A DNA stretch of 48,082 nt from Sphingobacterium sp. UBA2700 (lineage in GTDB: Bacteria; Bacteroidota; Bacteroidia; Sphingobacteriales; Sphingobacteriaceae). The stretch spans positions 91,724 to 139,805 of the forward strand of contig DELI01000019.1 of the NCBI GenBank assembly GCA_002354335.1. Reading direction: 5' to 3'. Below, one piece after another: positions 16,156 to 39,188 of this stretch (its first letter is position 1; every line of letters begins with the position of its first letter). Made by a program: the position numbers and the translations under genes. Below the pieces are notes generated by a model. The model saw only the letters and a program-made list of their open reading frames with translations. It had not been told where the DNA came from and did no database searches.

Positions 16156-16196
16156 AATATTCTTTGTTAGAGTTTTACACGAGGTTGCCTCCTCGT
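16156..16196 (-). promoter_or_regulatory. AGGCAA-hairpin leader of the tail tube gene
   Basis: On the minus strand CGAGG-AGGCAA-CCTCG (16180-16195) forms a 5-6 bp stem with loop AGGCAA. AAAACTCTAACAAAGA follows, ending 6-7 bases before the ATG. The same arrangement occurs before the genes at 30818, 35128/35078 and 39129. It decides the start of the tube gene. Confidence 0.65.
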
Positions 16197-16251
16197 TCAA
16201 ATTTTGTTACTAATCCTAATGCGTAAAGTCGCCACCGTACCGTAATTGCAG

Positions 16252-16686
16252 TTAAATATCTATTCTCAAGTAATTGTAATCAACTTGGATATTGTAAATC
16301 CAATCATTGCCGAAGTTTTCAAGTTTCCCAGGATTACGAAGACGCAAGGAGAAATCAAAGCCATTATGGAAATCTAGAACAGGGACTGCAATCGCTGCGA
16401 GTTCCAAGAATCGTGGGATGTTAGGCTGGGTCTTGTCCATTGTAGAACCACCTTCACCTGTCTGCCCCTTTAGGTATGGCACATGAATATTCACATTGAT
16501 GATTCCCGACTGGGACTGATCGCCATCCCAATAAAGGGTATTGATAATTATATCCTCCTTAGTGCTATTAAGCATTCTCATGTTATGGCGAATCTGACCA
16601 GTGATCACGCCTGGTAATGCAGTCCCATCTAGCAATCCTTTTACATCCGCCTGCGCATCAAGTGAAGTCTTTAGAGATTTTTTCAT
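16252..16686 (-). CDS. Tail terminator / tail completion protein
   Basis: A 144-residue soluble alpha/beta protein lying after the gp10-like neck protein and before the tail tube, the place of the tail terminator that ends tube growth and joins the head. Segments such as NTLYWDGDQSQSGIINVNIHVPY and RIDI at the C-terminus suggest strands around a compact core. The gene starts 4 bases after its upstream neighbour's stop and is followed by a 96-base gap holding the leader of the tube gene. Identification is by order and size only. Confidence 0.55.
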   Translation of the reverse strand: MKKSLKTSLDAQADVKGLLDGTALPGVITGQIRHNMRMLNSTKEDIIINTLYWDGDQSQSGIINVNIHVPYLKGQTGEGGSTMDKTQPNIPRFLELAAIAVPVLDFHNGFDFSLRLRNPGKLENFGNDWIYNIQVDYNYLRIDI

Positions 16687-16690
16687 ATGC

Positions 16691-17149
16691 CTACACTGCT
16701 ACATCGTTAAATGCCTGGTCCAATGTTTTCTCTACCTCTTTGCTCGCATCCGTAATCACGGAGAGTCCGTGCCTACTTTCCACCCAACTAGCGTATTCCA
16801 TTCCTGCAACAATGGTAATTCCCCACCCTTTGCTCTCTCGTAGTTCTTCCAGCGCTAACTTCCTGCCCGTTTCAAGACCAGGTGTCTTATCAGTTCCATA
16901 AGGAGCAAGTTTGAAGTCCTCAAACAGCACCTTTCCATCTCTGTAGATAATTCCACCGGTAGAAGAACGCAATTGACCTGTATCGTCATTATAACCACCA
17001 TCCGCACGCATCTTTGCCCGTTGGATTTCCAATGCACGTTGCAGCACTTTTTTGAATGCTTCACGCGTTTGTCTATCCATTTCATCGTATTGCTCTCTTA
17101 AGAGCGAATCGATTTCCTGTGGTGTCATATCTGGTACAAGTCTGATCAT
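16691..17149 (-). CDS. HK97 gp10-like neck protein
   Basis: 152 residues. A long N-terminal helix (QEIDSLLREQYDEMDRQTREAFKKVL) is followed by DDTGQLRSSTGG and the characteristic MEYASWVESRHGLSVI near residues 115-130, which matches the HK97 gp10 family (tube-side neck protein). The C-terminal helix resembles others in the family. It follows the head-closure candidate by 22 bases and precedes the tail terminator, as expected for the order connector, head closure, neck, terminator, tube. Confidence 0.75.
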   Translation of the reverse strand: MIRLVPDMTPQEIDSLLREQYDEMDRQTREAFKKVLQRALEIQRAKMRADGGYNDDTGQLRSSTGGIIYRDGKVLFEDFKLAPYGTDKTPGLETGRKLALEELRESKGWGITIVAGMEYASWVESRHGLSVITDASKEVEKTLDQAFNDVAV

Positions 17150-17171
17150 TTCTCCGTCTGCTACTGCCTGA

Positions 17172-19471: not shown

Positions 19472-20118
19472 TATTCTTTTGTTGTTTCTTTAGCTTTTAA
19501 ATAGCCTTGCATTAAAGGAGAAACATCTTCATCCTTAAGCTTAGCGTTTCCTACTCCCAAAAACGGCGCATCTTTCCCCAATGAACTTTCAGCTTGTGTC
19601 TGAACGTGAGCAGCGTAATCTGATTCAACGTGTCCGAGGAATTCCCCGAATGCGTTATCGTCTGCGAAGTTCATGTAACCGAAGTCACGTACAACTTTCG
19701 CTTTGTAATCCTCACTTGCTCCATCCAATTTTGCTAGGATTGCTGTTTTGCGGTCGGTTACGAGTTTCTCGCCTTTTAAAGCAGACACCGTTTCTGTCAT
19801 CGCCTTTTGCCCATCGATTAGCGCTTTTGCCCAAGCGGGAATTTCATCGTCCTTCACTTCTTCTTTCTTAGTTTCCTCAACTTTTTGTTCCGGCTTCTTT
19901 TTCGCTTCCGCTTCCAATGATCTCATGCGATCATCATCGCTTTTAATGGTCGCAAATGGATACCCCTCGTTCCATGCTTCCAACTTTGCCAATAACCCAG
20001 CTTCATCTGTCACCTTTCCTTCCGCTTGCTTCGCAAACTGTTCAATCCTTGCATCTGAAAGTACCACGCCCCCAAACTTTGTCTGAAGTAGTGTCTTAAT
20101 TGATTCTTTGATATTCAT
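19471..20118 (-). CDS. Capsid scaffolding protein
   Basis: A 215-residue acidic helical protein. A long Lys/Glu-rich coiled-coil segment (about 65-90, KKKPEQKVEETKKEEVKDDE) and helical regions either side fit a scaffold that directs capsid assembly and is then lost. The C-terminus (DVSPLMQGYLKAKETTKE) is basic and helical, as is usual for the capsid-binding end. It is the first gene of the head operon and lies about 70 bases after the putative late promoter at 20.19 kb. Assignment rests on composition and order. Confidence 0.7.
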   Translation of the reverse strand: MNIKESIKTLLQTKFGGVVLSDARIEQFAKQAEGKVTDEAGLLAKLEAWNEGYPFATIKSDDDRMRSLEAEAKKKPEQKVEETKKEEVKDDEIPAWAKALIDGQKAMTETVSALKGEKLVTDRKTAILAKLDGASEDYKAKVVRDFGYMNFADDNAFGEFLGHVESDYAAHVQTQAESSLGKDAPFLGVGNAKLKDEDVSPLMQGYLKAKETTKE

Positions 20119-20192
20119 CCGTTGTTATTTTTTTAGTAATAGCCCATCCCAACTGGCCGGTCGGGGTAGTTTATGCCCAAATATTTTACAAA

Positions 20193-20258
20193 CAAATATA
20201 AATATTATGATATGTCATGATACATCAAAGAAGTTGTATGAGGAGTGGGAAACAACTT
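20193..20258 (-). promoter_or_regulatory. Putative late promoter P-head with operator
   Basis: A minus-strand -7 box TATATTTG (20193-20200) lies 7 bases from TGATATGTCATGATACA (20208-20224), the same distance as in P-tape. An imperfect inverted repeat AAGTTGT/ACAACTT lies beyond it. The 53-bp block 20206-20258 is a diverged copy of 14801-14853. Transcription would start about 70 bases before the scaffold gene. Confidence 0.6.
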
Positions 20259-20347
20259 GTATTAATAGTTGTGCTTCATGGAAATGTCTTCCCTTAAGTA
20301 TATGGATTAAATATTTTTCATAATTTCGTAAGACCAAACGGAAGATT

Positions 20348-20908
20348 ATGAGAATACTATTCGCGATAACTGCTTTAATGCTGTCCCTTTCTGCTAGCGG
20401 TCAGGAATACGGGAAAAAGTTTGTTGATATTTATGTCAATATTAACGGACAGGATCCAAAGTCGTTTGTTATGGACGACGATACTTTAAAAATAACTAGC
20501 GGATGGTTTGAGCCTAAAAACTTTATTCTTGAGATCAACAATAAAACTTCCGGTATGCTATACGTCGATTTTAACAAATCGTACTTCATTCTTGGCGGCG
20601 AGACTTCCGATGTTGTTCCCGGTGAAACTTACATCAAAGATTTAAACCTTGAGGTGAAGAAAACAAACGTTGCCCCGGGAGCCAGAGCTAGTTTGAATTT
20701 GTACAGCTGAGAGCGTAATAATGAATTCAATCCAATATTCAGTTCCAGGCAGGCACATAAAGCATACAAGACTGACAAATCTTTCGTAACAGAAAGGCTT
20801 GTACTAGCGTTCGATGATGAAAATGGCAGTAAGTTCAAACGAGAGTTTATTTTTGAAGTTCGTGCAACAAAGTTGGTGAATGATTTGAAGAAAAGGACCC
20901 AAAAATGA
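20348..20908 (+). pseudogene. Exported protein interrupted by an in-frame TGA
   Basis: A signal peptide (MRILFAITALMLSLSASGQ) leads a small exported protein of 120 residues ending at TGA (20708-20710). The same frame then stays open for 65 more codons (ERNNEF to KKRTQK) to a TGA at 20906-20908, with sensible composition, so the natural protein was probably about 186 residues. Its middle part (DDDTLKITSG, then INNKTSGMLYV, SYFILGGETS) is related to the leftward gene at 21688-22188. It runs against the late operon. A nonsense mutation or stop read-through would explain the pattern. Function unknown. Confidence 0.6.
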
Positions 20909-21048
20909 AAAAGTTAATAACCTGCTGCCTAACTATCCCTCGTGATGATGCTGAAGGATCCGAGGGTGATCACGACTTAGAAGACGGCTTCCACTTCGGA
21001 TTCGATGGTGAAAACCTGCATTATGTGGTTACTTATGAGGTGGGGTGA
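20905..21048 (+). CDS. Short remnant or small protein after the broken exported gene
   Basis: A 47-codon frame whose ATG overlaps the TGA of the previous frame (ATGA). It opens like a lipoprotein or secreted protein (MKKLITCCLTI) but continues at once with an acidic stretch (PRDDAEGSEGDHDLEDG) and ends in HYVVTYEVG. The join looks like a deletion between a signal sequence and the end of another domain. A fragment with a similar ending (DGDRLSYVTKDTYRYF) lies at 21560-21676. I treat it as a probable remnant. Confidence 0.35.
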   Translation: MKKLITCCLTIPRDDAEGSEGDHDLEDGFHFGFDGENLHYVVTYEVG

Positions 21049-21074
21049 AGGGGCGAAATGAAATTTAACCTTAT

Positions 21075-21105
21075 GAAAAAACCCCAACGGTTATCGTTGG
21101 GCTTT
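21075..21105 (-). terminator. Terminator of the leftward membrane-protein gene
   Basis: On the minus strand CCCAACG-ATAAC-CGTTGGG is followed by a G and T6. It begins 3-4 bases past the stop of the gene at 21109. Its symmetry would also weakly stop rightward transcription. Confidence 0.7.
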
Positions 21106-21108
21106 AAT

Positions 21109-21507
21109 TTAAATTATTTTTAGCATAAATAGGTATAGCAACACTATAATGCTCATTATAGCGGTAACATAATACCCTCTTGATTTATACTGACTACCAT
21201 CTTTTACACGGCGGTAAATTCGTACAATTAGAATTATAAACAAAGCAGATATAATAGCAAGGTGAAAGTATGTTAATGTAAAATTCAGAGGTATTGCGAC
21301 GTTCCTAGTGATGCCTATTTGTTCAAATTTCTCAACTTCCAAATAGCGTTTTCCGATCGCGTCGGAATATGAGGTCTCTCCCCAATACCCAACTTTCAAT
21401 CCTCTAACAAGGGGAGATCCAATGATAAACCATCTCAGAATGACATCGAAAGCCGATATGATATATCCACAGTATGTTAGGGTTATCAAAATAATCGTCC
21501 TGTTCAT
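21109..21507 (-). CDS. Multi-helix membrane protein of unknown function
   Basis: 132 residues from the ATG giving MNRTIILITLTYCGYIISAF; a start 10 codons upstream is possible. It has an N-terminal hydrophobic helix, a polar exported-looking loop (GYWGETSYSDAIGKRYLEVE) and two more helices near the C-terminus separated by a basic loop (RIYRRVKDGSQYKSRG). Three membrane passes are likely. It is AT-rich like the rest of the accessory island and ends at a strong terminator. I do not recognise a family. A role in surface exclusion is conceivable from location alone. Confidence 0.55.
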   Translation of the reverse strand: MNRTIILITLTYCGYIISAFDVILRWFIIGSPLVRGLKVGYWGETSYSDAIGKRYLEVEKFEQIGITRNVAIPLNFTLTYFHLAIISALFIILIVRIYRRVKDGSQYKSRGYYVTAIMSIIVLLYLFMLKII

Positions 21508-21559
21508 AATTAATAATTGTTGATCACAATATATCAATAAACACGTACATTATAAATAA

Positions 21560-21676
21560 ACATTAATATCAATTATCAACGGACGTAAATCGGTGCAACA
21601 TTGGGTGTCTTCAGAAAGCGCTATCGATGGTGACCGTTTGAGTTATGTTACAAAAGATACTTATAGATATTTTTAG
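21560..21676 (+). pseudogene. Coding-like fragment without a start
   Basis: A rightward frame open from a TAA at 21557 to TAG at 21674-21676 (38 codons) with no ATG. The ending (AIDGDRLSYVTKDTYRYF) resembles the end of the 47-codon frame at 20905. I read it as a gene remnant; chance cannot be excluded. Confidence 0.25.
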
Positions 21677-21687
21677 ATACAAAAAAG

Positions 21688-22188
21688 TTACAGAAATCCG
21701 GCTTCAAATAAGGCGATTTGAGCGTTTGTATGGATCGAACATACATTACTATGCTTATAATATTTGTTAACATCATTGTAATTGAAGATCTGTTTTTCTA
21801 AAGACAGCACTTTGGCATCCAACCCCTCCTTACTGGCAATTTTCTGCGGCGCATTATTATTAACTTGATTTGATGAAATCATTCCCATAGCAACTTTACT
21901 AACACCTGCGTTATCTACAGGATAGGTACTACCATTTATAACGTAGTACGATTCTTTCCAAATCACCGATATTGTTTTATCAGTCTTATTATCTATTCTG
22001 AAATTCATACACCGCATAGAACCATTAAGAAATGTGATTTTTACAGCGTCATCTTCCAGGGTAAATTTATCAGGATGCTGGTGATTTAGTTGGACATGCA
22101 CACTTTCTATTCGCTTTGAATTTTGGGCGAAAGTTGCTGTGCTGGTTAAAATGATTATTACAGTAAAGAGGTGTTTAACAAATCTAAT
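21688..22188 (-). CDS. Exported protein related to the 20.3-kb gene; start codon lost or ATT
   Basis: An internal GTG at 22101 would give 137 residues and no signal peptide. The frame continues upstream to 22188 and encodes RFVKHLFTVIIILTSTATFAQ, a perfect signal peptide, but the codon where the start is expected is ATT. The gene therefore either uses a rare ATT start or has lost its ATG. The mature region (LEDDAVKITF, then IDNKTDKTISVIWKESYYVINGSTY) matches the pattern of the rightward gene at 20348. The C-terminal third is helical and polar. Function unknown; both relatives are damaged or nonstandard. Confidence 0.5.
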   Translation of the reverse strand: MRFVKHLFTVIIILTSTATFAQNSKRIESVHVQLNHQHPDKFTLEDDAVKITFLNGSMRCMNFRIDNKTDKTISVIWKESYYVINGSTYPVDNAGVSKVAMGMISSNQVNNNAPQKIASKEGLDAKVLSLEKQIFNYNDVNKYYKHSNVCSIHTNAQIALFEAGFL

Positions 22189-22282
22189 TTATGAGGTAAA
22201 TATATTAATTAGCTTGGACCTCGAGTAAATTAAGTTGTGTTGTAAGTTGTATGGTGTTGGGGGAACGTGTAGAGTAAATATA

Positions 22283-22317
22283 ACAAGACCCTCAGTTTTT
22301 TCAAATGAGGGTCTTGT
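22283..22317. terminator. 12-bp perfect hairpin
   Basis: ACAAGACCCTCA (22283-22294) and TGAGGGTCTTGT (22306-22317) flank an 11-base loop. On the minus strand it is followed by an AT-rich stretch (TATATTT) rather than a clean T-run. It contains the stop codon of the 35-residue frame at 22301-22408, so it could end that transcript. Confidence 0.5.
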
Positions 22318-22408
22318 CCTTTAACATTCTTTTGAATTGCAGATGATTATGGGATATATTCATAAGTATATCGAAAGTAGCTTTATCCCTAAACTTATAG
22401 AATTCCAT
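22301..22408 (-). CDS. Small hypothetical protein (35 residues)
   Basis: A 35-codon frame preceded by GGAGG 8 bases before its ATG, a good Shine-Dalgarno match that is unusual in this organism. The peptide (MEFYKFRDKATFDILM then a basic end) is soluble and could be helical. It lies after the Ig-like lipoprotein gene and its weak terminator. Its stop codon is inside the hairpin at 22283-22317. Too short to be certain of expression. Confidence 0.4.
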   Translation of the reverse strand: MEFYKFRDKATFDILMNISHNHLQFKRMLKDKTLI

Positions 22409-22493
22409 AGCGTCTACCTCCGTCTACATCAAAAATACACTAACTTTTCTTGTTAAATTTAAGATAAATCGTATTACCTACCATAAAAAATAG

Positions 22494-22528
22494 GAAAATA
22501 AATCCTCTACTTTTTATGGTAGAGGTTT
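22494..22528 (-). terminator. Weak terminator after the Ig-like lipoprotein gene
   Basis: CCTCTAC (22504-22510) pairs with GTAGAGG (22519-22525), followed on the minus strand by ATTTATTTT. An overlapping alternative pairing, TACCATAAAAA with TTTTTATGGTA, is possible in the same stretch. Confidence 0.5.
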
Positions 22529-22542
22529 ATGATTGCACTTTG

Positions 22543-23937
22543 TTAATTTAACGTTAAAATTCTTTCGTACGTTTTGCCGTTTATCTCAAATTTAAAAATA
22601 ATCCTAGGGGTGTCTACCGAGTTTAATCTTGAAGTGAGACTTAGTTGCGTTCCTGGTGCTATGTCTTGTGTCTCGTTATTAAATGAAACAACTACATTAT
22701 TTATATTTTTTACTTCATAACTTTTGAATTTTATCGGGCTATTACTATAGTTAGCTAAAACAGAAGTAATATTTCCGGTCACAAAACCGTTGTTACTAAA
22801 TATAGATTTGACGGATATATATGACTGAACAAGGTCTATAGCTTCTACAACTTGGACGGAACAATAAGAAGATATTTCGGGATTAGAATTTGACTTGGCA
22901 GATATTACAGAAAACCCTTTTGAAATAGCCTTAACTACTCCTTTTTCATCAACTGTCGCAACTGAAGGGTTTGAAGAAGTCCATGTCAAAGTTTTGTCTT
23001 TTGCATTTGAAGGGGAAACGGTTGCATATATTTGACTCGCTTCTCCAATCGTTAGTTTTAGGTTGCTTTTGTCTAATATTATTGTGCCAACCTTTGGTAA
23101 ATTCACCTTTATGGTTAAAAAATCTTCTTTGTGACCTTCGTTAGTCGTTATCTTTATTTTTGTTTCACCCTCCGCCTTAGCTATTATAACTCCGTCTGAG
23201 ACTGCTGCTATTGATGCATCTAACGACTCTAATTTAACACTTTTATCAGTAGCGTTTGCGGGCAAAACGTTGTATTTAATTATTGATGAACCTCCAACCT
23301 CAAGCGTAATGGATTTTTGTTCAAAAGAAACCGATTCAACCAATATTGGGTTTACTTTTATAGTTATTTTACCCATAATGGATGTTCCCTTTATTTTTCC
23401 AGTAATCTCAACATCTCCAACAGATATACCAGAAATAACTCCGCCTGTACTAACTTTTGCTATATTCTCATCGGAGCTAGCCCACTCTACAGATAAGTTG
23501 TTAATATTAGTTGTATTTGGCGGCTCAATAGTATAAGTTAGTGTTGAAGTTTCTCCAACCAAAATAACTTCTTTATTCGCTTTAACTATTAATTTTTCAG
23601 CAGCAACTGGAAGAACAGTGATTTTGATTTCCGTTTTTAATGCAGTGCCTTTTGAAATTGCCGTAATAGTTGCTGTACCAGCATTTAGCGCAAAAACTTT
23701 AAGTCCCTCTACTTTTGCAATATTATTATCACTGGACGTTAGTTCGTAGGACGGGGATGTTAAATTTTCGGGAAAGTGGTTTATTACTAAAATCTCGTTT
23801 TGTCCCTCAATTAACTCAATCTCTTTGCTGTTAAAACTAATTGATTTAATAACACTTTCAGGCTCCGGATCATTACTTTTAGAACAGCCGAATAAAGTAG
23901 CTAATGCTACAAATAAAATTAATAATTGTTTGGTCAT
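22543..23937 (-). CDS. Surface lipoprotein with four BIg2-type Ig-like domains
   Basis: 464 residues. A lipoprotein signal ends at LFGC (Cys18), followed by Ser-Lys and an acidic linker. Four bacterial Ig-like (BIg2) repeats follow, at about 30-110, 112-195, 197-280 and 283-365, with the family patterns VxWxSSDxxIAKVS-GVI and LTWTSSNPSVATVDEKGVV. The C-terminal domain (about 370-464) is a separate beta sandwich. Such proteins sit on the outer membrane and bind ligands or polysaccharide. It is AT-rich, placed between portal and scaffold genes and absent from standard head operons, so it is probably accessory cargo expressed in the lysogen. The ligand is unknown. Confidence 0.8.
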   Translation of the reverse strand: MTKQLLILFVALATLFGCSKSNDPEPESVIKSISFNSKEIELIEGQNEILVINHFPENLTSPSYELTSSDNNIAKVEGLKVFALNAGTATITAISKGTALKTEIKITVLPVAAEKLIVKANKEVILVGETSTLTYTIEPPNTTNINNLSVEWASSDENIAKVSTGGVISGISVGDVEITGKIKGTSIMGKITIKVNPILVESVSFEQKSITLEVGGSSIIKYNVLPANATDKSVKLESLDASIAAVSDGVIIAKAEGETKIKITTNEGHKEDFLTIKVNLPKVGTIILDKSNLKLTIGEASQIYATVSPSNAKDKTLTWTSSNPSVATVDEKGVVKAISKGFSVISAKSNSNPEISSYCSVQVVEAIDLVQSYISVKSIFSNNGFVTGNITSVLANYSNSPIKFKSYEVKNINNVVVSFNNETQDIAPGTQLSLTSRLNSVDTPRIIFKFEINGKTYERILTLN

Positions 23938-23966
23938 TTTTATATTTATTTAAGTTATGCTTTATT

Positions 23967-24050
23967 TTAAGTCAATACTGTTGTTGGTTCTTCAAACTGT
24001 TCAATATACGCAATGCTGGCTAGCACAAGCGAAAATAATAGTTTATTCAT
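23967..24050 (-). pseudogene. Orphan signal-peptide remnant
   Basis: A 27-codon frame encoding MNKLLFSLVLASIAYIEQF then a short polar end. It looks like the start of an exported protein whose body has been deleted. It lies directly upstream of the Ig-like lipoprotein gene and reads in the same direction. Confidence 0.3.
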
Positions 24051-24191
24051 AAGTTCTTTAGATTAAAAGCTAAGATAGGAAATGCTTTAAGTATTTCAAT
24101 GAATAAATGTGGGTAAATTGCATTGTAAGTTCCTTGGTTTTAAGTTTTATTATTTATATACAAAATTGAACAATTTTCTTTTAATGAAACT

Positions 24192-24428
24192 ATGGAAGAA
24201 GGAGTATTTGTACAAATAAAATTATCCGATTTACAGGATATGATTAAGAAAGCAGTAGACGATGGAAATCGTGATAGTTTTGAGAAATTCACAAATCCTG
24301 ACCCCATTCTTTTGACACAGATGAATTAGGTGATAGAATTGGTATTACTAGGCAAACAGTTTAACAGTGGAGAAAATCGAAGAAAAATACTCTTTATTAA
24401 AATAGATGGAGTCATTATATACGATTAA
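24192..24428 (+). pseudogene. Frameshifted small HTH (excisionase-type) gene
   Basis: The 5' part is open (MEEGVFVQIKLSDLQDMIKK and on to codon 45). Read through changes of frame, it continues as DELGDRIGITRQTV, an in-frame stop, QWRKSKK and finally KIDGVIIYD and a stop. That is the layout of small Bacteroidota DNA-binding proteins: a coiled start, a helix-turn-helix and a short beta wing. At least two frameshifts and one stop codon make it a clear pseudogene. It was probably an accessory regulator or an excisionase-like gene of an older mobile element. Confidence 0.6.
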
Positions 24429-24528
24429 CACAAGTTCCTCCAAGTAAAAGAAACAAAGAGAAAGAGGTGAGAAGCTTTATTATTTACATGGGATAAATCA
24501 ACTGCAAACTGTTTTTTCGTTCGGAACG

Positions 24529-30906: not shown

Positions 30907-30912
30907 ACAATA

Positions 30913-30947
30913 CAAACATAGTAAACTTTTCAAACTTTTTAAACTTT
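30913..30947 (-). promoter_or_regulatory. Early promoter with three operator octamers
   Basis: A minus-strand -7 box TATGTTTG lies at 30913-30920. On the plus strand octamers TAAACTTT, CAAACTTT and TAAACTTT start at 30922, 30931 and 30940, exactly 9 bases apart, the first 1 bp from the box. The promoter at 39.91 kb has the same placement. Confidence 0.65.
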
Positions 30948-31006
30948 TGTTGACAAAAAGTGAATTTTACCACGCAACGCATTGACTATAAGCATTATAA
31001 TTTTAC

Positions 31007-33577
31007 TTAAAATGGAAACTCCTCCTCTCGAACAGCGCCTTCAAACGATCCTGTGAAAATATGCACCCTTTTTGACCCTTGATTAGGAATAGATTTTACT
31101 TGAGACTGCTCAAAATTAATCCCGTACCTTTCGCAAAATTCCCTTACCGCCTTGTTCAGGGACTGCTGCGTGAGCTTATACTTTTCTTTGAGGTCACCAG
31201 CAACGTAATCATCATAAGCACGTTGAAAATTCTTTACTTCGACGTAGTCTGCTAGCGTCCAAGTTGACATATTATCCATAAGAAATTCAAGTGTCTTGTC
31301 CCCAAACTGATTGGTAAACTTTTTCTCCCAACCTATCTGAGATAAGTCTGTCTGTTGAAGTTTTCCTCCTTGTGCCAGATTGTATTGAATACAATTGAGA
31401 ACAAAATCATCAAAACCCTTCCAGTCCTGATCTGTCCAATCTCCTTTGGTGCTTCCTGTAGGAAATAATTTTCCGTGAACCCCATCGACCCCACCATGTT
31501 TTGTATAATAATCTGTGAACTCAACAACTCTAATTCTGCGCTTAAGACCACCGTCGGAATCCTCGAAACTGTAGTTTGTATTGATTAGGATCTTAGGCAT
31601 AAGCTCAGGTGCAATTTCCTCCTCATTCCTGTACAACTTTTTTAAAAGCCCAAAACCTGTAGCCTGTTCTTTAAGGAACATCCAGTCGATCCTCTTCGGG
31701 ATATCTGCAAGAAAGTATATGCGTTGGTAATTCCATGCTTGTAGGAACTTCTCATTGAATTGCACCGAAGATCCGGGAACGGTACATACTGTTGTCATAT
31801 TACGGAGAAGATTACCAAAAATATTCTTTCCAGATCCACCGCCTAATTTTGGGTCCGATACCATCTCCTGCATCACGACTACATAACCAGCTGATTCTGA
31901 CTTAAAATCATGCGTAAGATATCCAATGATATTTCTCACAGAATCTTTCACATTCCCATTCTCAACGCCAGTAGCATTTTTTAGAAAAGATTCATATAGA
32001 GAAGACGCGATAACCTCTGGACCCAAAAAATCCCTGGAAAGCATTTTATCTGACCAGATGTAACCTTCAATATCATCATACGCTACTGGGACAATCGCAT
32101 CAGCCGTAACGCGAACGGCGGTATTGTTATAAAACTTGTAGCACACATCAGCGCTATCGGTAATACACTCAGTATCGTCAAATTTATCCAATCTGGATTC
32201 CGCGATGAACTTTCCGCTTGCTTGGACAAACTTTTCGAACGCGTTACAGATTTTCGTGTACGTTTCGACCTCCTCTTCTTGAATGTACGCCTTCATGGTG
32301 TCGAAAAATTCTATCAAGGTGACCCGCTCAATAAAGCGCTGGTTTATTTGCACCACAGATCCATTGTAGTGACGAAATCCTATGTTACGGGCAACCGTTA
32401 AAAAATCCTCTCTAGAAATAGTGTATTTATCATCTTCGATTATCCAGAAAGTTCCATAAGGATGAGCCTGCTTGAACTGCTCCTGGAGCTGTTTAAACTG
32501 CTGCTTTGCTTCTGCAGAGAAATTGTTTGGTACGGTCGCATTTCCGTTAATAACAGCCTTTTTAATATGCGATTGCTCGAATTGTTTCTTAACTTGTCCA
32601 TACCCCTGCTGAACTAAAGCCCGGAATGCTTTTGATTTATCACCTCCGTGATAAAACTCCGCGTATAATGTCGCAGGATTGTAACCACGCTTTTCCTCTA
32701 AATCGGTTGATGTTGTAAACAAATAGAAAACGCGACTTTCCCTATGGAAAGTTGCTGACACACCACTATCCTTTCCTGGCCTCGTATATCGAATATAGGT
32801 GCTGTTCTCATTAAAAAATTTCCATCCTTGCGCTTCCATGAGCTCCGTAGGATCACATTTATGGTTGTAGTCCTCAAACGGATTTGTTGTGTATATACTT
32901 TCTTGTGCTTGGGTCGGTTTTGGAGATGGAGCCACACGCACAACCTCATCATAGCTTTTACATAGATTGATAAGCGAACATCTTTCTTCCCAGGTCAATA
33001 TAGGTATAGGCATATTTTGGTGAACAGAATATCCCATACTTGGCGGACATAGAAAAAATCCACCCTCTCCTCTTGTTTCTACAAAGCAAACAGTCTTTGG
33101 AGGCTTAGCTATTCCTCGTTGCTGCTGTTCGAGAATCTCCTGCTCAGTAGAATACCGTTTTGCTAGATGTTTGTTCCCGTCGGGAGCTCCTCCAACAATC
33201 CGGTATAAGATGTGGTATCCACCGCTTGGCGTCTTATGAATTCTAAGGCGTGCGTAAAGCTGAGGGTAAAATTTAGCAAGATCAGAAAACAGTATTGCAT
33301 CGAACCCGGGAAAATACTTGGTATCAATGTCAATACACTCCAAATTACCTGACACTGCGCCCGCAACAATTGCCACACCTGTTGTATCGTAATACTCCAT
33401 TGAGCTATACAGTTCCCCTTCTGTAGCCACACGCGATTGAAACTGCTTCCACGAAGCCCCATATGGAGTCTTCTCCTTTTTTTCACCTTCAGGCTTATCT
33501 CGAACGGGGATTAACGATATACCATCTTTCAATAATGGCGTAATTTCCGCCCATACTCTTGCTAACTCAATTGCCAT
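31007..33577 (-). CDS. Primase-helicase: PrimPol plus SF3 helicase
   Basis: 856 residues. The N-terminal domain is a bifunctional primase/polymerase: GVAIVAGAVSGNLECIDID (about 65-85) holds the metal-binding acids, and TPSGGYHILYR (about 113-123) is the conserved later motif. A middle domain of about 200 residues is less clear. The C-terminal half is an SF3/D5-like helicase with Walker A GGGSGKN near residue 575 and a following acidic strand (IYFLADIPKR). It should unwind the phage origin and prime synthesis. The very end, VREEEFPF, looks like an SSB C-terminal tip. It starts 1 base after the helicase gene and shares its operon. Confidence 0.85.
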   Translation of the reverse strand: MAIELARVWAEITPLLKDGISLIPVRDKPEGEKKEKTPYGASWKQFQSRVATEGELYSSMEYYDTTGVAIVAGAVSGNLECIDIDTKYFPGFDAILFSDLAKFYPQLYARLRIHKTPSGGYHILYRIVGGAPDGNKHLAKRYSTEQEILEQQQRGIAKPPKTVCFVETRGEGGFFLCPPSMGYSVHQNMPIPILTWEERCSLINLCKSYDEVVRVAPSPKPTQAQESIYTTNPFEDYNHKCDPTELMEAQGWKFFNENSTYIRYTRPGKDSGVSATFHRESRVFYLFTTSTDLEEKRGYNPATLYAEFYHGGDKSKAFRALVQQGYGQVKKQFEQSHIKKAVINGNATVPNNFSAEAKQQFKQLQEQFKQAHPYGTFWIIEDDKYTISREDFLTVARNIGFRHYNGSVVQINQRFIERVTLIEFFDTMKAYIQEEEVETYTKICNAFEKFVQASGKFIAESRLDKFDDTECITDSADVCYKFYNNTAVRVTADAIVPVAYDDIEGYIWSDKMLSRDFLGPEVIASSLYESFLKNATGVENGNVKDSVRNIIGYLTHDFKSESAGYVVVMQEMVSDPKLGGGSGKNIFGNLLRNMTTVCTVPGSSVQFNEKFLQAWNYQRIYFLADIPKRIDWMFLKEQATGFGLLKKLYRNEEEIAPELMPKILINTNYSFEDSDGGLKRRIRVVEFTDYYTKHGGVDGVHGKLFPTGSTKGDWTDQDWKGFDDFVLNCIQYNLAQGGKLQQTDLSQIGWEKKFTNQFGDKTLEFLMDNMSTWTLADYVEVKNFQRAYDDYVAGDLKEKYKLTQQSLNKAVREFCERYGINFEQSQVKSIPNQGSKRVHIFTGSFEGAVREEEFPF

Positions 33578-33578
33578 T

Positions 33579-35078
33579 TTATACTAATGTTATATCTTCA
33601 AATTCTACTCTCGACGCTCCAATCATTTTACGCTGGTGATCGGCCCAGCCTGGTCTGTATCCCATTGCGGCAGTAAATGCCTCGAGGAAACCTTTGCGCA
33701 ACTGCTCTTGGGCGCGCGCGACACGAGCAGCAAAAGGCTGCTTCTTTTTTATCTTTGCATATACCGCAAGTTCGCCCGGTGTGAGTTCACTTATCCTGCG
33801 TCCCACCAATCGAGTGTAATGCGATGTTACCTCTATCAGTTCGCCTTGTTCCAATTCCTTTTCAGTAAGGGGACGCTCGTGTCCGCACCACGGGCAGATT
33901 CTTTGCGATGCTGAAATGATGGATTCGCATTTTTCACAAAGAGAGACCGTACCAATACCCTCGCTCTTCTTTGCGCGCTTGGTGGTTTCCCACATCTTAT
34001 CCCATTCTCTGTCCTCGAAGTATAGTCCATGACGTTCCCAATTACCGCCATAATCCAAAACTCTAAAATGTGTCTTTTCGCGGGTGCCGTTTGATGACCA
34101 AACCGGACGCGAACCACGACCTATCATTTGCAAATACAATGGAAGGGATGTTGTTGCACGGTTCAATATGACAAGATCCACTTGCGGTAGATCCAACCCT
34201 TTTGTGAGAGACGCTACGCTGACACAAATATTGGCGAGATTTAGTTCGGTGAATTTCGCAAGCTCGTAAGATGCGTTTTCAAGTTGTGAATGATACTCTA
34301 CAGACGCAAACCCCTCCTCACGCAAGCGCGCATTCATTTCAGTTGCGTGCTTAATAGACGCAACGAAAATCATACACTTGGAAAATGGAGTTGTACGCAA
34401 ATCGTCAAGAATTCCATCGTATACTGCTGATGTGCCGAATGCCGCTTGTTGGGATGCTTCGGTAAATTCTCCATTTCGCATTTCGAGGATATCGGTATCC
34501 GCTTTAGTTCTAGCGAGGTGTTGGTAGCTACAGAGGAATCCCTGTTGAATCAATTCATCAACCTGGCAACAAACCACGCATGAGTTATATAGTTCCGGTA
34601 GGTGTTTTGCCACTCGCGCGTCAGGTGTAGCAGTAAAGCCAAGGATGTATGGATTGGATGCGGAGATAAGGTGACGTATGATGTTACTGGGTGTTCCGAT
34701 ATGCGCCTCGTCCACAATGATAAGCGGAGGGAATTCGAGCGCAGCAAGTTGTTGAATTATTAAAGGCCGCCTAGTAAGGGTTTGCGCCATTGCGATATAC
34801 AATTCGCCGCCACGGATATGAACGTGCTTCTTGCCATTGGCAATTTCGATGCCACCAGCTTCATTGATAATCTGGTCGAATATCTTGGTTGTCTCGCTTA
34901 TGATTACAACTGCGCGGCCATTCTCAATGGAGCGTCGAGCGACTTCGATGAACATCTTCGTCTTTCCACTGCCCGTTGCGGCACATGCAATCACTCGTCT
35001 ATGGTCTCGAAGTCCGCGTGCAAGGTTATTTACAAAATCCTCTTGGTAAGGACGTAGTTTAAAATTAATAACTTTCAT
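33579..35078 (-). CDS. SF2 helicase with zinc ribbon, RadD-like
   Basis: 499 residues from the ATG at 35078, which has GGAGG 7 bases upstream and overlaps the stop of a 17-codon leader frame. The SF2 motifs are AATGSGKT (Walker A, about 33-40), VDEAH, TATPD, and QMIGRGSRP (motif VI, about 315). The C-terminal part has CEKC and CPWCGHE, a zinc ribbon as in RadD/YejH. RadD works with SSB in repair of branched DNA. Here it neighbours the SSB-like and primase genes and probably serves phage replication or recombination. Confidence 0.85.
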   Translation of the reverse strand: MKVINFKLRPYQEDFVNNLARGLRDHRRVIACAATGSGKTKMFIEVARRSIENGRAVVIISETTKIFDQIINEAGGIEIANGKKHVHIRGGELYIAMAQTLTRRPLIIQQLAALEFPPLIIVDEAHIGTPSNIIRHLISASNPYILGFTATPDARVAKHLPELYNSCVVCCQVDELIQQGFLCSYQHLARTKADTDILEMRNGEFTEASQQAAFGTSAVYDGILDDLRTTPFSKCMIFVASIKHATEMNARLREEGFASVEYHSQLENASYELAKFTELNLANICVSVASLTKGLDLPQVDLVILNRATTSLPLYLQMIGRGSRPVWSSNGTREKTHFRVLDYGGNWERHGLYFEDREWDKMWETTKRAKKSEGIGTVSLCEKCESIISASQRICPWCGHERPLTEKELEQGELIEVTSHYTRLVGRRISELTPGELAVYAKIKKKQPFAARVARAQEQLRKGFLEAFTAAMGYRPGWADHQRKMIGASRVEFEDITLV

Positions 35079-35128
35079 GCCGACACCTCCATATGTGATG
35101 CCGTACAAAAAATCCAAACGGTTTTCAT
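35075..35128 (-). CDS. 17-codon leader frame coupled to the helicase gene
   Basis: The frame MKTVWIFCTASHMEVSA begins at the first ATG after the AGGCAA-hairpin leader and its TGA overlaps the helicase ATG (ATGA). The CTAACAAAG element lies 8 bases before this ATG, as it does for other leaders. It may pass ribosomes on to the helicase start. A leader peptide, rather than a functional protein, is the likely reading. Confidence 0.45.
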   Translation of the reverse strand: MKTVWIFCTASHMEVSA

Positions 35129-35195
35129 GTATTAGTCTTTGTTAGAGTTGATAAAAAAAGGCGGTGAAAGGGATTGCCTTCCGCAATCACCGCCT
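35129..35195 (-). promoter_or_regulatory. AGGCAA-hairpin leader, also a terminator
   Basis: On the minus strand GGCGGTGA-TTGC-GGA-AGGCAA-TCC-CTT-TCACCGCC (35160-35194) is followed by T7, so it can end the upstream SSB-like transcript. AACTCTAACAAAGA follows before the 17-codon frame. It is the only one of the four leaders with a T-run, so it may act as a regulated attenuator ahead of the replication genes. Confidence 0.65.
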
Positions 35196-35205
35196 TGTCA
35201 TGGTG

Positions 35206-35574
35206 TTAGAACGGCAAATCGTCGTCGTCGCTCACTGTCGCAACTGGCACCGTGTTCGCTGCAGCTGAGAAATCCTTGATATTGCCAAGAATTGGTTGAG
35301 CCGCCTTCAAGGCGTCTGGAGTGTCTTTTAATGTTTTGTACACCTCTGAAGGGATACCTTTACTAATGAAGCCATTCTGCCCGTATTGGTCCGCTTCTTC
35401 ACGGACGGTCACCCTAACATCCATATAAACAGCTCCATCTTTTTCTGTTAGGTTATTTCCATCAATAGGCAAGAATATCCCTCGGATAAGCCCTGATTTA
35501 CCCTGCTTCTCGATGATGATGGATTGTGGTAGTCTTGTTAGGGCAATTGACCCATTTAAATTTCTGTTTGACAT
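35206..35574 (-). CDS. Single-stranded DNA-binding-like protein
   Basis: 122 residues. The N-terminal 85 or so are strand-rich (ALTRLPQSIIIEKQGKSG, then GAVYMDVRVTV), compatible with an OB-like fold. The C-terminus is a disordered linker ending in SDDDDLPF, the acidic tip by which bacterial SSB recruits partner proteins. It starts 2 bases after the preceding gene and is the last gene before the hairpin at 35.16 kb. The tip strongly suggests an SSB role; the body is too divergent to be sure by eye. Confidence 0.6.
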   Translation of the reverse strand: MSNRNLNGSIALTRLPQSIIIEKQGKSGLIRGIFLPIDGNNLTEKDGAVYMDVRVTVREEADQYGQNGFISKGIPSEVYKTLKDTPDALKAAQPILGNIKDFSAAANTVPVATVSDDDDLPF

Positions 35575-35576
35575 GT

Positions 35577-35996
35577 CTATTTATTTTGATTATTTAATTC
35601 ACTAATTAATTCGGCAACCTGCGCCTGTTGGGTAAGAGAAAGACAATAGAACGTATCCACTGTGGATATGATGTCGTATTGCATTTCCTCGATTGCCTGT
35701 TTGCCTGACTTTTTAAAGTGTACTTGATTTATGATCGAATTCACTTCTTTCATTGCCTCGATTGCGATAGTCGATTTCTCGACGATATACTGCACCGGAT
35801 TAATGAACTTCGGCGTTGACAATCCCGCTATCTGCACGAGCTTCGGTGTCATCCTTACCTGCGACGCATATTCGCGCAGGGAATTCTCAAAATGTTCTGC
35901 GCTGTTTAGCAGACTGATGGTCGCCTTGAACTGCGGAATGAATTGCATAGGTACTACATTGCCAGCGATGTTGGCGTTGAATTTTATTGAGGTCAT
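35577..35996 (-). CDS. Hypothetical helical protein of the recombination operon
   Basis: 139 residues from MTSIKF, chosen because its ATG overlaps the stop of the 29-residue gene (ATGA). An in-frame ATG 5 codons upstream is less likely. The protein is soluble, mostly helical with paired hydrophobic repeats (HFENSLREYASQV and IVEKSTIAIEAMKEV). It is translated between the coiled-coil protein and the SSB-like protein. I recognise no family. A role in replication or recombination is inferred from operon membership only. Confidence 0.55.
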   Translation of the reverse strand: MTSIKFNANIAGNVVPMQFIPQFKATISLLNSAEHFENSLREYASQVRMTPKLVQIAGLSTPKFINPVQYIVEKSTIAIEAMKEVNSIINQVHFKKSGKQAIEEMQYDIISTVDTFYCLSLTQQAQVAELISELNNQNK

Positions 35997-36082
35997 TTTC
36001 TTTCCTTCCAATATTTATAATCCCAGGTAGCGGCAATTACGGCAGCAATCACCACTACAACAATTTTCCACATGATGTGCAT
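35993..36082 (-). CDS. 29-residue membrane peptide
   Basis: A complete short frame with one hydrophobic helix (WKIVVVVIAAVIAATW) and a basic end (YKYWKERK). The ATG overlaps the TAA of the upstream gene (TAATG), and the TGA overlaps the next ATG (ATGA). Double coupling makes it very likely to be translated. It resembles small phage membrane peptides of unknown role. Confidence 0.55.
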   Translation of the reverse strand: MHIMWKIVVVVIAAVIAATWDYKYWKERK

Positions 36083-37245
36083 TACGCTGCTTTCTTCTTT
36101 GTAGCTCGAGCCACGGCTTTATACTTCGGTTCGTACTTCACATCCTCGTGAGTGATCATCTCACCCGTTGATTTCGCTTGACGTTCTGCAAAGGTTACCA
36201 TGCTATCAAGTTTAACCTTACCCAATTCTTGCGGGGAAGCACCAGCGTTGGTTAGATAGTAATCCACAACCGCACGCCAGCCATCTACCGACCCAACAGT
36301 GATTGAGTATGATTCAATTGCACGCGGAGCGTCAACTTCACGGTTTGCCTGCGATACCATAACGGTTACAGTAGCTTGTTGCTTTTCCTTTTCCGCTTGT
36401 TCGGCTGCGCGTCTTTCGGCTTCCTTCCTTGCATTTTCGGCTTCTTCTTCCTGTTTTCTTGCCAACTCCGCCGCTTGTGCGCTTTCTTGTTCTCCTCGTT
36501 CCAACTCTTCCTTGCGGGCAGGAAATAGAGTAAGGATATATTCAGCGTATTTGGTTACCTCAGTTGTGAAGTGGGTTGAGCAAGCATTGAAGCGCTCTGA
36601 GGTTCGCACCTCTCCAATCAGCGTATCATCGCCCACTAAGGAGATCGCATTCCATGCTTCTTCGGAAAGTGTACCGCCGATGAACCCGCGAACAGCCGCT
36701 TCCGCTTCTTCTATCTGCGCAAGCGTTGTATTACTATAAACCTGAAGAATAGTCTGCTTCACGTTAGTAAGATGGTTCGCGTATCCCGTACGTAATTGTG
36801 ATTCTAATTCAGCAATCGCATCAATTCTACGCTGTTTTTCTCTCAACTCCGCTTCTTCCTTTTCACGAGCGGCAGCCGCTTCCTGCGCATGGATCTTTGC
36901 AGAACGGTCGCGCACCTTCTGAATAGCGTCGTACAATTCTTTACCCAAAGTATTTTCAAGTGCTGTAAATTCCTTGATGAAGGCATGAGCTTTTTCAGTG
37001 TAAACAGAACGGGTTTCATTCATAAACTTTACAGCTTTCTTTGCGGAAACCTGCCAGTTCATCAATTCGTCATCCAGCTGCTTTGGAAGCTTTTCCCCGG
37101 ATTCAGCAGCACGTTCCAAAAGCGCACTATGCTTCACGCGATATTTTTCCAACATTGCAACGGATGTTGTATATACTGATCCTGCACTTTGTAGGTCAGA
37201 TTGTGACAGGGATATTATCCCCACCTTGTTTTCTTGTGTTGACAT
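36082..37245 (-). CDS. Coiled-coil protein of the recombination module
   Basis: 387 residues. Helical throughout, with Ala/Glu/Arg/Lys-rich coiled coils at about 110-150 and 255-295 (KQEEEAENARKEAERRAAEQ). A small C-terminal globular domain (about 300-370; VGSVDGWRAVVDYYLTNAGASPQ) precedes a Lys-rich tail (ATKKKAA). Proteins of this shape often sit beside exonuclease and annealase genes in Bacteroidota phages. It starts 4 bases after the exonuclease gene. A structural or DNA-bridging role is plausible; the family is not recognised. Confidence 0.55.
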   Translation of the reverse strand: MSTQENKVGIISLSQSDLQSAGSVYTTSVAMLEKYRVKHSALLERAAESGEKLPKQLDDELMNWQVSAKKAVKFMNETRSVYTEKAHAFIKEFTALENTLGKELYDAIQKVRDRSAKIHAQEAAAAREKEEAELREKQRRIDAIAELESQLRTGYANHLTNVKQTILQVYSNTTLAQIEEAEAAVRGFIGGTLSEEAWNAISLVGDDTLIGEVRTSERFNACSTHFTTEVTKYAEYILTLFPARKEELERGEQESAQAAELARKQEEEAENARKEAERRAAEQAEKEKQQATVTVMVSQANREVDAPRAIESYSITVGSVDGWRAVVDYYLTNAGASPQELGKVKLDSMVTFAERQAKSTGEMITHEDVKYEPKYKAVARATKKKAA

Positions 37246-37249
37246 GATT

Positions 37250-38350
37250 TTAAAATGGTAATGGATCTGAAACTGGTTCTTTTACTGCAACTGGTGTAAC
37301 CGGCGACGGTCTGCGACTTTCTGATAACTCCAACTGCGGAACGGCATGACCGAACTTACGTCCAACGAATTCGGAAATTCCTTCCCGGCGCACTACCGAC
37401 GAAACTCCTGTTTCACGATCAGCAATTGATAACACCCCACCGATATTGGTGTAAACCTTTCGCTCTGCTTTGCTAGCATAACGGATATCAGCTAAGGTAA
37501 GGACAGCGTCCACTTCCTCACGACTCACATCGCCCGTCCAATCCTTAAGGTTGTACGTAGGCACATCTCCTGTCCATTCTTTTGGCGACCAATTGAAAGC
37601 TGCGTCCAGCGGAAGGTCTGGAAAGTTTTCCTCCCATAACTGACGCTCCGCTTCAATCTGAATTCCGTTGGTTCTGTAAAATCCGTGACGTCCCGATTTG
37701 AAATTGATGATTGCACGAATTACCTTATCAACTTTGCATTCGCGCGGTTGACCTTTGCGAGGTCCTGACTTGTACGGGTCGCTTTCGTCGAAACCATCTA
37801 CTTTAATTGTCATGTTGCACACTAGATCTATTAAGGTTCCAAAGCCACGATCCGACAAGAGCACGAATTCAATCCCCAAAGGCTTTACTTTGTAATCAAA
37901 GAAGAATTGACAGAAAGCCGCCATGTCACTACGCAGTTTCTCCCCCCAGCCATTGCATTCGGGTTGGTAGAAGTTTTTGGAGGAAAGGTAGTTCTCTATC
38001 ACCTCCTCCACTGCAGAAAAATCATAGCTGCCATTGATCAACCATTTGCCAATTTCTAAGTGAAGGAGAGTGCCGTAATTTTGCGCGACTTCCAAAAGCC
38101 TGCCTGCCTCTTGTCTCCCATGTTTAATGTACCAATCCAAAAGACCGTCTTCCATAGGGCTGCATGTGTTGATAGCCGTGGTTAACGAAGTATACAATCT
38201 CAATGGAGATTCTACCGGAGTTCCATCTTGATCAAGACGGATGTACGCACGCCCCTGACCGAAATTCACACGTCCTACCTTGTAGGATGGTAAGCGAAGT
38301 GCATCTTCGCGAAACCAATCCGTGTGTATCTGTTCGAAAGTTATAGCCAT
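37250..38350 (-). CDS. PD-(D/E)XK exonuclease (RecB/RecE-like)
   Basis: 366 residues. The nuclease core has RGFGTLIDLVCNM (catalytic Asp of motif II) and AIINFKSGRHGF (motif III with the conserved Lys), followed by YRTNGIQIEAERQLW, the QxxxY-like motif IV of RecB-type nucleases. It would degrade one strand of double-stranded DNA to provide single strands for phage recombination. The C-terminus ends SDPLPF, like an SSB tip. It overlaps the gp3-like gene by one base, which suggests that the two proteins work together. Confidence 0.75.
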   Translation of the reverse strand: MAITFEQIHTDWFREDALRLPSYKVGRVNFGQGRAYIRLDQDGTPVESPLRLYTSLTTAINTCSPMEDGLLDWYIKHGRQEAGRLLEVAQNYGTLLHLEIGKWLINGSYDFSAVEEVIENYLSSKNFYQPECNGWGEKLRSDMAAFCQFFFDYKVKPLGIEFVLLSDRGFGTLIDLVCNMTIKVDGFDESDPYKSGPRKGQPRECKVDKVIRAIINFKSGRHGFYRTNGIQIEAERQLWEENFPDLPLDAAFNWSPKEWTGDVPTYNLKDWTGDVSREEVDAVLTLADIRYASKAERKVYTNIGGVLSIADRETGVSSVVRREGISEFVGRKFGHAVPQLELSESRRPSPVTPVAVKEPVSDPLPF

Positions 38351-39129
38351 TATTTAACCTCCTCCGCTTCTACGTCCTCAACAATGTCAACTGGACCACC
38401 GCTCGGCAATTGCAATAGGGAGCCACTAGTGATCATGTTCGTTGTAAGCCGAGATAAGTCAGCACCTGATTCTACATAACCTCGCACCATTTCCATTGTC
38501 TCCTCAGTAAAATTTGGCACTAATTGTACAATGGGATAATTTTTAGCCATTCCTGGAGTATAAGACTGTACTTTTTTAACCATTAAGGAGAAAGGGAAGC
38601 CAATAATACTACCACTGCGCTCTAGAACTGTATCAAATGATTTAACGATTCCAGGAATGGTAGTTTCTTTAGCTTTTGTTTGGAAAGTCCAGTATCCGAG
38701 AATCCCTTTCATTTCAAGAAGCACGAATCGCATCGTTAAATAACGATCCCACAATTTACCGAGGGATTTTACTCGTGGGTCATCTTTGTCGACCCCACTT
38801 TCGTAACCGCCCTTACCATCTTTACCACCCGCAGGGTTCCATACTGTGAAGATTTCGCCGTCGCCCCATCCAAAGCGCTTCCCTTTATCCCACGCTTGGA
38901 ACTGCTCATTACACACCTCTTCAACGTTATTAGATACGAAAGCTACTTTCAATTCAGTAGGTTTGTCGCCGAATAGTGATTGAAACTTATTTGCAAAATC
39001 TCCAGTGGCACGGAAATAATCCAATGATGTAGGTAGACCGCGGTCTGTTTTTATGCCTACTTTAATTTTACCGATTTCGGGCAATGTACTACCTTGCTGC
39101 ACACCCCCTGAGGAAATACGTCCTTTCAT
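38350..39129 (-). CDS. gp3-like (recombination directionality factor family) protein or annealing partner
   Basis: 259 residues. LPEIGKIKVGIKTDRGLPTSLDYFRATG at the start, followed by FANKFQSLFGDKPTELKV and a Gly-rich mid-section, fits the phage family loosely called gp3-like or hydrolase/metal-binding. Characterised members include directionality factors of serine integrases, but here the integrase is a tyrosine type. Given its place before the exonuclease, it may be a DNA-binding partner of recombination or an annealase. It starts after an AGGCAA-hairpin leader. Family moderately sure, function open. Confidence 0.5.
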   Translation of the reverse strand: MKGRISSGGVQQGSTLPEIGKIKVGIKTDRGLPTSLDYFRATGDFANKFQSLFGDKPTELKVAFVSNNVEEVCNEQFQAWDKGKRFGWGDGEIFTVWNPAGGKDGKGGYESGVDKDDPRVKSLGKLWDRYLTMRFVLLEMKGILGYWTFQTKAKETTIPGIVKSFDTVLERSGSIIGFPFSLMVKKVQSYTPGMAKNYPIVQLVPNFTEETMEMVRGYVESGADLSRLTTNMITSGSLLQLPSGGPVDIVEDVEAEEVK

Positions 39130-39188
39130 TTGTTCTTTGTTAGAGTTTTTATCTTTTCTGTGAAATGGGATTGCCTTCCCTAAATCAC
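39130..39188 (-). promoter_or_regulatory. AGGCAA-hairpin leader of the gp3-like gene
   Basis: On the minus strand GTGA-TTTA-GGGA-AGGCAA-TCCC-ATT-TCAC (39160-39188; inner and outer stems), then AAAAACTCTAACAAAGAA ending 4 bases before the ATG. The hairpin also holds the stop codon of the 32-codon frame just upstream. Confidence 0.65.

Follow-up and report, generated by a model that had tools for sequence, protein, structure and literature searches.

The stretch considered here, 48,082 nucleotides of Sphingobacterium sp. UBA2700 (contig DELI01000019.1, positions 91,724 to 139,805; hereafter the window), holds a Sphingobacterium-like prophage in which terminase, portal, capsid, tape measure and integrase genes are present. 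An earlier note, made from the sequence alone, had described on its minus strand four hairpins with the loop AGGCAA, each followed by a common sequence element and a start codon, and all four were confirmed at those places. The sites are named by the ATG that follows them (A, 39129; B, 35128; C, 30818; D, 16155), and the hairpin, the downstream element (referred to as the box) and the gene belonging to each are as follows.

39160 to 39188, minus strand: site A hairpin, with outer stem 39185-39188/39160-39163, inner stem 39177-39180/39167-39170 and loop 39171-39176.
39135 to 39145, minus strand: site A box, CTCTAACAAAG, ending 5 nucleotides (nt) upstream of the ATG at 39129.
ATG at 39129, minus strand: Gp3-like gene (PF18897), behind site A.
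35160 to 35194, minus strand: site B hairpin, with outer stem 35187-35194/35160-35167, inner stem 35180-35182/35171-35173 and loop 35174-35179.
35137 to 35147, minus strand: site B box, CTCTAACAAAG.
35075 to 35128, minus strand: short open reading frame (ORF; MKTVWIFCTASHMEVSA), behind site B.
30852 to 30881, minus strand: site C hairpin, with outer stem 30877-30881/30852-30856, inner stem 30870-30873/30860-30863 and loop 30864-30869.
30829 to 30839, minus strand: site C box, CTCTAACAAAG, upstream of the ATG at 30818.
ATG at 30818, minus strand: gene for a small protein with CPHC and CCYC motifs (Pfam matches sub-threshold only), behind site C.
16179 to 16196, minus strand: site D hairpin, with a 6-bp stem 16191-16196/16179-16184 and loop 16185-16190.
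16162 to 16172, minus strand: site D box, CTCTAACAAAG, upstream of the ATG at 16155.
ATG at 16155, minus strand: tail-tube-like gene, behind site D, so called by position only; its PHROG match is of unknown function.

In coordinate order, the four loops (16185-16190, 30864-30869, 35174-35179 and 39171-39176) are closed by contiguous stems of 6, 4, 3 and 4 bp. Downstream of each hairpin stands ACTCTAACAAAG and then the ATG, with 5, 9, 7 and 4 bases between the end of ACTCTAACAAAGA and the start codon. The stem had been said to differ in every copy; the window in fact holds three stem sequences, as GGA/TCC and GGGA/TCCC differ in length and not in sequence, and the outer stem once ascribed to two copies is found in three (sites A, B and C). 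The site A hairpin overlaps the stop codon of a preceding 32-codon ORF, and that of site B is followed by a T run and scores as intrinsic-terminator-like. On its own, AGGCAA occurs at chance level (28 found against 28.2 expected on both strands of the window), whereas the joint pattern AGGCAA-N4-34-ACTCTAACAAAG is met four times in the window. The same joint pattern gave 42 matches over 41 stretches of a viral collection. A stem of at least 3 bp accompanies only three of these matches, all from one near-identical contig (L012, L035); the stems of the other 39 have 0-2 bp. What is significant is the combination of loop and box, not AGGCAA by itself.

Related phages and prophages were found through the Gp3-like protein, the helicase protein and the pattern, and were fetched whole or mostly. 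The record nearest to the window, G001, carries the same four copies; both it and G015 are near-identical to the window and were left out of the counts. In the window and ten relatives, the sites stand at the same four places A-D in 44 of 44 cases (site D of G005 and G008 being found on another contig, taken as the remainder of the same phage), and phages having the sites are by definition class I. A genome of S. corticibacter is among those with class I sites. The conserved letters at these 44 sites are RGGCA[A/T] and then TCTAACA, an invariance that is partly by construction, since the sites were located via TCTAACA and RGGCA[AT]. A fifth site, T, is present in three relatives (G006, G013 and G219) downstream of a promoter-like TATATTTG, and in the two of these phages that were scanned (G006, G013) it lies upstream of phage tRNA genes. 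Altogether there are 48 class I sites (A 11, B 12, C 11, D 11, T 3). The loop, AGGCAA in all four window copies and hence first described as invariant, is RGGCAA across the relatives: its first base is G in 36 sites and A in 12, GGCA is common to all 48, and the last base is A in 47 and T in one. The box is likewise present at every copy, but its surest core across relatives is CTCTAACA and not CTAACAAAG, with a C directly before TCTAACA in 44 of 48 boxes. Loop end and box are separated by 10-43 nt, the 3' arm of the hairpin included, and CTCTAACA ends 4-10 nt before the ATG at A, 13-15 nt at C and 9-12 nt at D (11 sites each).

Folding studies argue that the pairing itself has been maintained. 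With the loop held unpaired, hairpins made of their own arms had a mean energy of -12.9 kcal/mol, against -4.7 when the 3' arm came from another site class (standard deviation (sd) 0.5; 0 of 500 swaps as good; 35 distinct hairpins from the 48 sites), and the unconstrained comparison gave -13.4 against -7.8 kcal/mol (sd 0.6; again 0 of 500). For a count of inner-stem pairs, 16 chosen sites were trimmed to the loop region and aligned on the loop; here 85.9% of cells were paired and 15 cells carried double changes (each reached by 0 of 500 shuffles), a double change occurred in 4 of 4 pairs (14 of 500 shuffles), and slid controls paired at no more than 54.1%. Selected RNA structure, as originally proposed, is thus strongly supported by compensated stem changes and by orthologous copies: further copies exist in related phages, and changes in one arm are compensated in the other. 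The element is almost certainly a selected RNA element, with its exact loop less sure than its stem.

A covariance model built from the 16 aligned sites was used to search both strands of 35 phage stretches. It returned 49 hits, comprising 45 of the 48 known sites, three sites of G015 and one elsewhere, every one of them on the coding strand. Applied to 28 stretches that surround more distant Gp3-like genes, the same model found only a remnant (L063) and three weak matches; in 22 stretches around distant SSB-like genes it gave two weak matches (E 0.11 and 0.87). Among 295 Bacteroidia genomes, strict filters left only G002, the known prophage, in a search that scored only 19 candidates per listed genome and recovered two of the four G002 sites, so that its silence elsewhere counts for little. 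Among 399 Sphingobacteriaceae genomes the pattern was matched 28 times, in 21 genomes; nine of these matches, in four genomes, are prophage sites. Within the searches made, the element is found only in one Sphingobacterium phage lineage. In keeping with the earlier remark that no named motif matched, the window has no match in Rfam release 15 at gathering thresholds, nor has 30780-39300 any match with E up to 1 (site D being covered by the gathering-threshold search only), and no description of the motif turned up in searches of the open-licence literature.

Two further relatives carry a second version, class II. Class I occurs in G009 at B alone and in G010 nowhere; in both phages, CGGCAA lies in a hairpin loop at A and C, and in G010 also at B, some of these loops being large. 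An 11-mer that includes the start codon, TTTATTATGAA, is present at all five start-linked CGGCAA hairpins of G009 and G010 and nowhere else in those records. At site D of G010 the stem and AAAGAATATTATG are kept, with GTACAG as the loop and CTCTAACA absent, and at site D of G009 the stem is kept without RGGCAA or box. Loop and box are apparently read together, because both are absent at D while the stem and the start region remain. In 11 listed proteins G010 shares 85-95% identity with the window, against 36% for gene 1 (the first gene of the early run) and 44% for the repressor. A link between motif class and these control genes is suggestive only, since class I relatives are also low in gene 1 (42-59%) and in the repressor (49-60%).

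The interpretation preferred here, to which we give a probability of roughly 0.4, is a bipartite RNA operator through which one factor would control the translation start of each gene block. Briefly, the cis-acting RNA would consist of an RGGCAA-tipped hairpin and a box, CTCTAACA(AAG), beginning 10-43 nt past the loop, placed ahead of the first reading frame of four or five successive blocks. One phage-encoded or phage-specific factor would bind loop and box together, the stem acting as a variable handle and the spacer as a flexible tether, and the bound factor would activate or repress translation start of the first frame and of genes whose translation is coupled to that frame. Recombination/excision, helicase-primase, a small-regulator unit and tail genes would in this way respond together. 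Translation control is favoured because at all 33 A, C and D sites the box ends 4-15 nt upstream of the ATG, because the class II element includes the start codon, and because the short ORF of window site B ends over the likely helicase ATG. Sequence cannot distinguish the three functions first suggested, namely translation enhancer, 5'-end stabiliser and target of an RNA-binding protein; the best fit is a target for an RNA-binding factor that acts close to translation starts. By our estimate translation control ranks ahead of antitermination, and antitermination ahead of RNA processing or stability.

Candidate partners and a simpler role for the box were also considered. By tblastn from the window, the gene for an SSB-like protein is found in class I and not in G009 or G010, but it is widespread in motif-less phages, and its predicted structure is too poor to use (predicted local distance difference test (pLDDT) 44); the protein was rejected as partner. 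Gene 1, a candidate trans-acting factor by position and divergence only, yields a confident model (pLDDT 86) without a PDB match at E <= 0.001, its best viral structural match (E 0.0097) being a protein without a name, and it was set aside too, as it separates the classes weakly (36-38% in class II against 42-59% within class I). A ribosome-binding site was rejected because the box lies at varying distances from the ATG and finds no complement in the 16S rRNA of two host relatives; its duplex with the 16S tail is no better than shuffles, 98 of 200 of which were as good.

These partner and 16S results weigh against the operator. The partly constructed invariance and the shallow class-wide search mentioned above also count against the analysis as a whole, and several further points must be set beside them. 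Regarding structure, the 16-site alignment omits, among others, nine of the 11 A sites and those D sites whose loops are enlarged, and its pair types are no more numerous than in shuffles (290 of 500). A first pair count, on the MAFFT alignment A2, gave 47.7% paired against 47.1% in shuffles and 72.9% when slid by 3, without signal because MAFFT had misaligned the loops. When the sites are folded without constraint, only 30 of the 48 leave RGGCAA fully unpaired (A 5/11, B 2/12, C 10/11, D 10/11, T 3/3), with GGG-CCC pairing within the presumed loop at most B sites; the hairpin is missing from the best fold at three of 11 A sites (G006, G007, G011); and the box CTCTAACA is fully unpaired at 39 of 48 sites and at none of the three T sites. 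Regarding position, the box-to-ORF distance at B is variable, with an extra predicted hairpin in between in several phages, and at two of three T sites 75 nt separate the box from the next ORF. Regarding the searches, the covariance model missed G006 D, G013 D and G007 A, placed its hit on the second hairpin at some A sites, and gave its one hit elsewhere (L142, 7232-7284) within a 1014-codon open frame. The other 19 of the 28 Sphingobacteriaceae matches comprise 18 without an ATG within 20 nt and one without a stem, and a reversed control pattern yielded 10 among the matches listed.

A more specific proposal, tentative and somewhat doubtful, is that one phage-encoded RNA-binding protein recognises loop and box jointly and switches the gene blocks (recombination/excision, replication, late regulator, tail and, in some phages, tRNAs) through RNA and not through promoters, acting on the ribosome or on RNA polymerase, and that classes I and II are two specificity groups swapped together with early control genes. 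Lambdoid phages exchange N and nut in this manner, and we know of no example of such a genome-wide RNA-level regulon in Bacteroidota phages.

Among the alternatives to the bipartite operator, one that comes second and must be called unlikely is a nut-like site, in which the nascent hairpin and box would load a phage antiterminator, with host factors, on RNA polymerase so that it passes terminators in long gene runs. A nut site is a conserved-loop hairpin with a separate box and a tolerant spacer, and this is the layout seen here; site A comes after the first early genes, a position like that of nutR behind cro, site T lies downstream of a promoter-like sequence and, in the two phages scanned, upstream of phage tRNAs, and the motif version differs among phages. 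Terminator-like hairpins stand downstream of C in nine of nine phages scanned, 322-2074 nt away in eight and, in G002, 4958 nt away or about 500 nt counting a weaker one. The scan was lenient (10-21 hits per record in eight of nine records) and had no shuffled control, and these hairpins were picked from it by hand, so that nine of nine is weak. Of the sites in these nine phages, the scan listed as terminator-like only the B hairpins of the window, G011 and G012. This alternative is weakened because the box, CTCTAACAAAG, differs from the boxA of host relatives: GTTCTT is present in 24 of 30 16S leaders of relatives of a host (20 of the 24 at -153 to -185) and GTTCTTWA in 23, and identification of the box as boxA was rejected. 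Moreover, the order of parts and the copy number are unlike nut, the proximity of most sites (at most 15 nt) to a start codon is not needed by nut, and an N-like protein was not found.

Less probable again is an RNA processing or 5'-end stabilising site, at which the hairpin would recruit or block a nuclease and leave a protected 5' end near the start codon of each block. Sites A, B and D are intergenic and near an upstream stop codon, with the box between hairpin and start, as such a role would have it; yet a mere stabiliser needs no conserved loop and conserved distant box that are absent together, and in some phages, given the extra hairpins predicted between box and ATG, the leader would still be structured after cleavage. 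That the site is a DNA-level signal (operator, promoter or replication site), palindromic by chance, is very improbable, for although palindromes with a conserved neighbour are common as operators and the extended start-associated sequence of Cluster K phages is so read in the part of the report available (PMC3203893), stems that vary with pairing kept while the loop alone is conserved are the opposite of a fixed half-site operator, and the both-strand model search hit the coding strand only.

Returning to the surroundings of the proposed operator sites, the following signals and gene complete the picture in the window.

30913 to 30920, minus strand: TATGTTTG, which fits the Bacteroidota -7 element TAnnTTTG.
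30049 to 30071, minus strand: intrinsic-terminator-like hairpin, downstream of site C and before the late genes.
39570 to 39815, minus strand: gene 1, first of the early run, 81 aa.

TAnnTTTG is the -7 consensus of Bacteroidota promoters; near TATGTTTG, no -33 element was identified at the usual spacing. The word leader, applied earlier to all four copies, suits C and T, which lie at varying distance downstream of promoter-like sequence, but is less apt for A, B and D, which are intergenic within apparently polycistronic runs; similarly, the gene behind D had been called a tail tube, a name that stands by position only, its PHROG match being of unknown function.

Between hairpin and box, seven of the nine A sites read contain another short inverted repeat, which the best fold includes in six. 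After site B, a 17-18-codon ORF containing IFC follows in 10 of 10 phages read, and in the window its stop codon shares bases with the ATG at 35078 from which the helicase probably starts. The frame that comes next begins differently in G005 and G007, perhaps through an inserted gene, and in some phages GGAGG, which is unusual for Bacteroidota, lies inside the short ORF. In the 16 distant loci read, a plain hairpin, in some cases with a T run, often stands behind the SSB-like gene at the position of site B. Inside the coding region of the C gene of G002 (L138, 21113-21150 of the joined stretch) and of G231, TCTAACAAAG is followed by AGGCAA, the opposite order to the leader sites, and an 11-bp stem was computed in G002 only. 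By eye, a near-CTAGTAAAAAAT string was seen at several A, C and D sites of G005, G006, G007, G011, G012 and G013, 3' of the hairpin at A and C and 5' of it at D.

Before the late genes, positions 29565-29634 of the window hold a promoter-like TATCTTTG and, some 20 nt further on, a hairpin of very high stability (-22 kcal/mol) whose tail is rich in T; together they may be an attenuated late promoter. An insert between the portal and capsid genes (20100-25000) carries a gene for an Ig-like protein and terminator-like hairpins. Also between these genes, tRNA-like fragments were noted by eye at 24600-24900, where some relatives have tRNA genes, and ARAGORN found no tRNA in the window. A host-type boxA, GTTCTTTRA, like that in the rRNA leaders of host relatives, adjoins the tRNA genes in G006, G012 and G013 (L143, L159, L161) and also stands in the comparable region of G010 (19124, reversed record); its place beside tRNA genes suggests that host Nus antitermination may serve phage tRNA transcripts.

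The nearest precedent is the start-associated sequence (SAS) with its extended form (ESAS) of mycobacteriophages. In the portions of the reports available, SAS/ESAS of Cluster K mycobacteriophages and Cluster EF Microbacterium phages is a short asymmetric sequence repeated beside the start codons of unrelated genes, mostly in one orientation and largely within one phage group, with an inverted-repeat consensus that differs by subcluster and with unknown function (PMC3203893, PMC7302621). About half of the Cluster K SAS copies have an inverted-repeat feature just upstream, for which the authors found little support as RNA hairpins and favoured DNA sites (PMC3203893), and a later paper, likewise available in part, places putative promoters within ESAS (PMC11373665). 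The present element is alike in being repeated near the starts of unrelated genes (4-10 nt at A, 13-15 nt at C and 9-12 nt at D, over 33 sites). It differs in that, on the same portions of text, SAS holds a Shine-Dalgarno core, whereas the box lacks a 16S complement in two host relatives, and in that the inverted repeats there were judged not to be RNA hairpins, whereas the hairpin here covaries. In the part of the phage AnnaSerena genome analysed, neither of two exact copies of the ESAS core GTAGAG upstream of SAS-like sites is a hairpin loop, so these copies do not support Cluster EF ESAS as a loop-conserved hairpin, and a pattern scan for such a hairpin in viral contigs gave no match.

Lambda nut shares with the element a conserved-loop hairpin with variable stem, a separate box, a tolerant spacer and versions that differ among related phages. 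In contrast, the hairpin comes first and the box second here (48 of 48 sites, searched in that order), whereas lambda boxA precedes boxB; there are four or five copies, close to start codons, and the box is unlike the boxA of host relatives. The hairpin also comes first in E. coli rrn. Phage translational operators, such as the targets of T4 RegA and gp32, Mu Com/mom and the RNA-phage coat operators, are similar in that a phage factor acts on RNA near a start, sometimes of several genes, a factor that is only proposed here; they differ in being a single hairpin over the ribosome-binding site, as opposed to a tethered bipartite element.

Taken together, the element may be regarded as an equivalent, at the RNA level, of the start-associated repeats that actinobacterial phages carry for reasons still unexplained. 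To our knowledge, little is known of the timing of gene expression in Bacteroidota phages, and a covarying bipartite element heading four or five blocks suggests genome-wide control at the RNA level, for which the two natural versions and the natural sites without both parts could help to find the partner factor.

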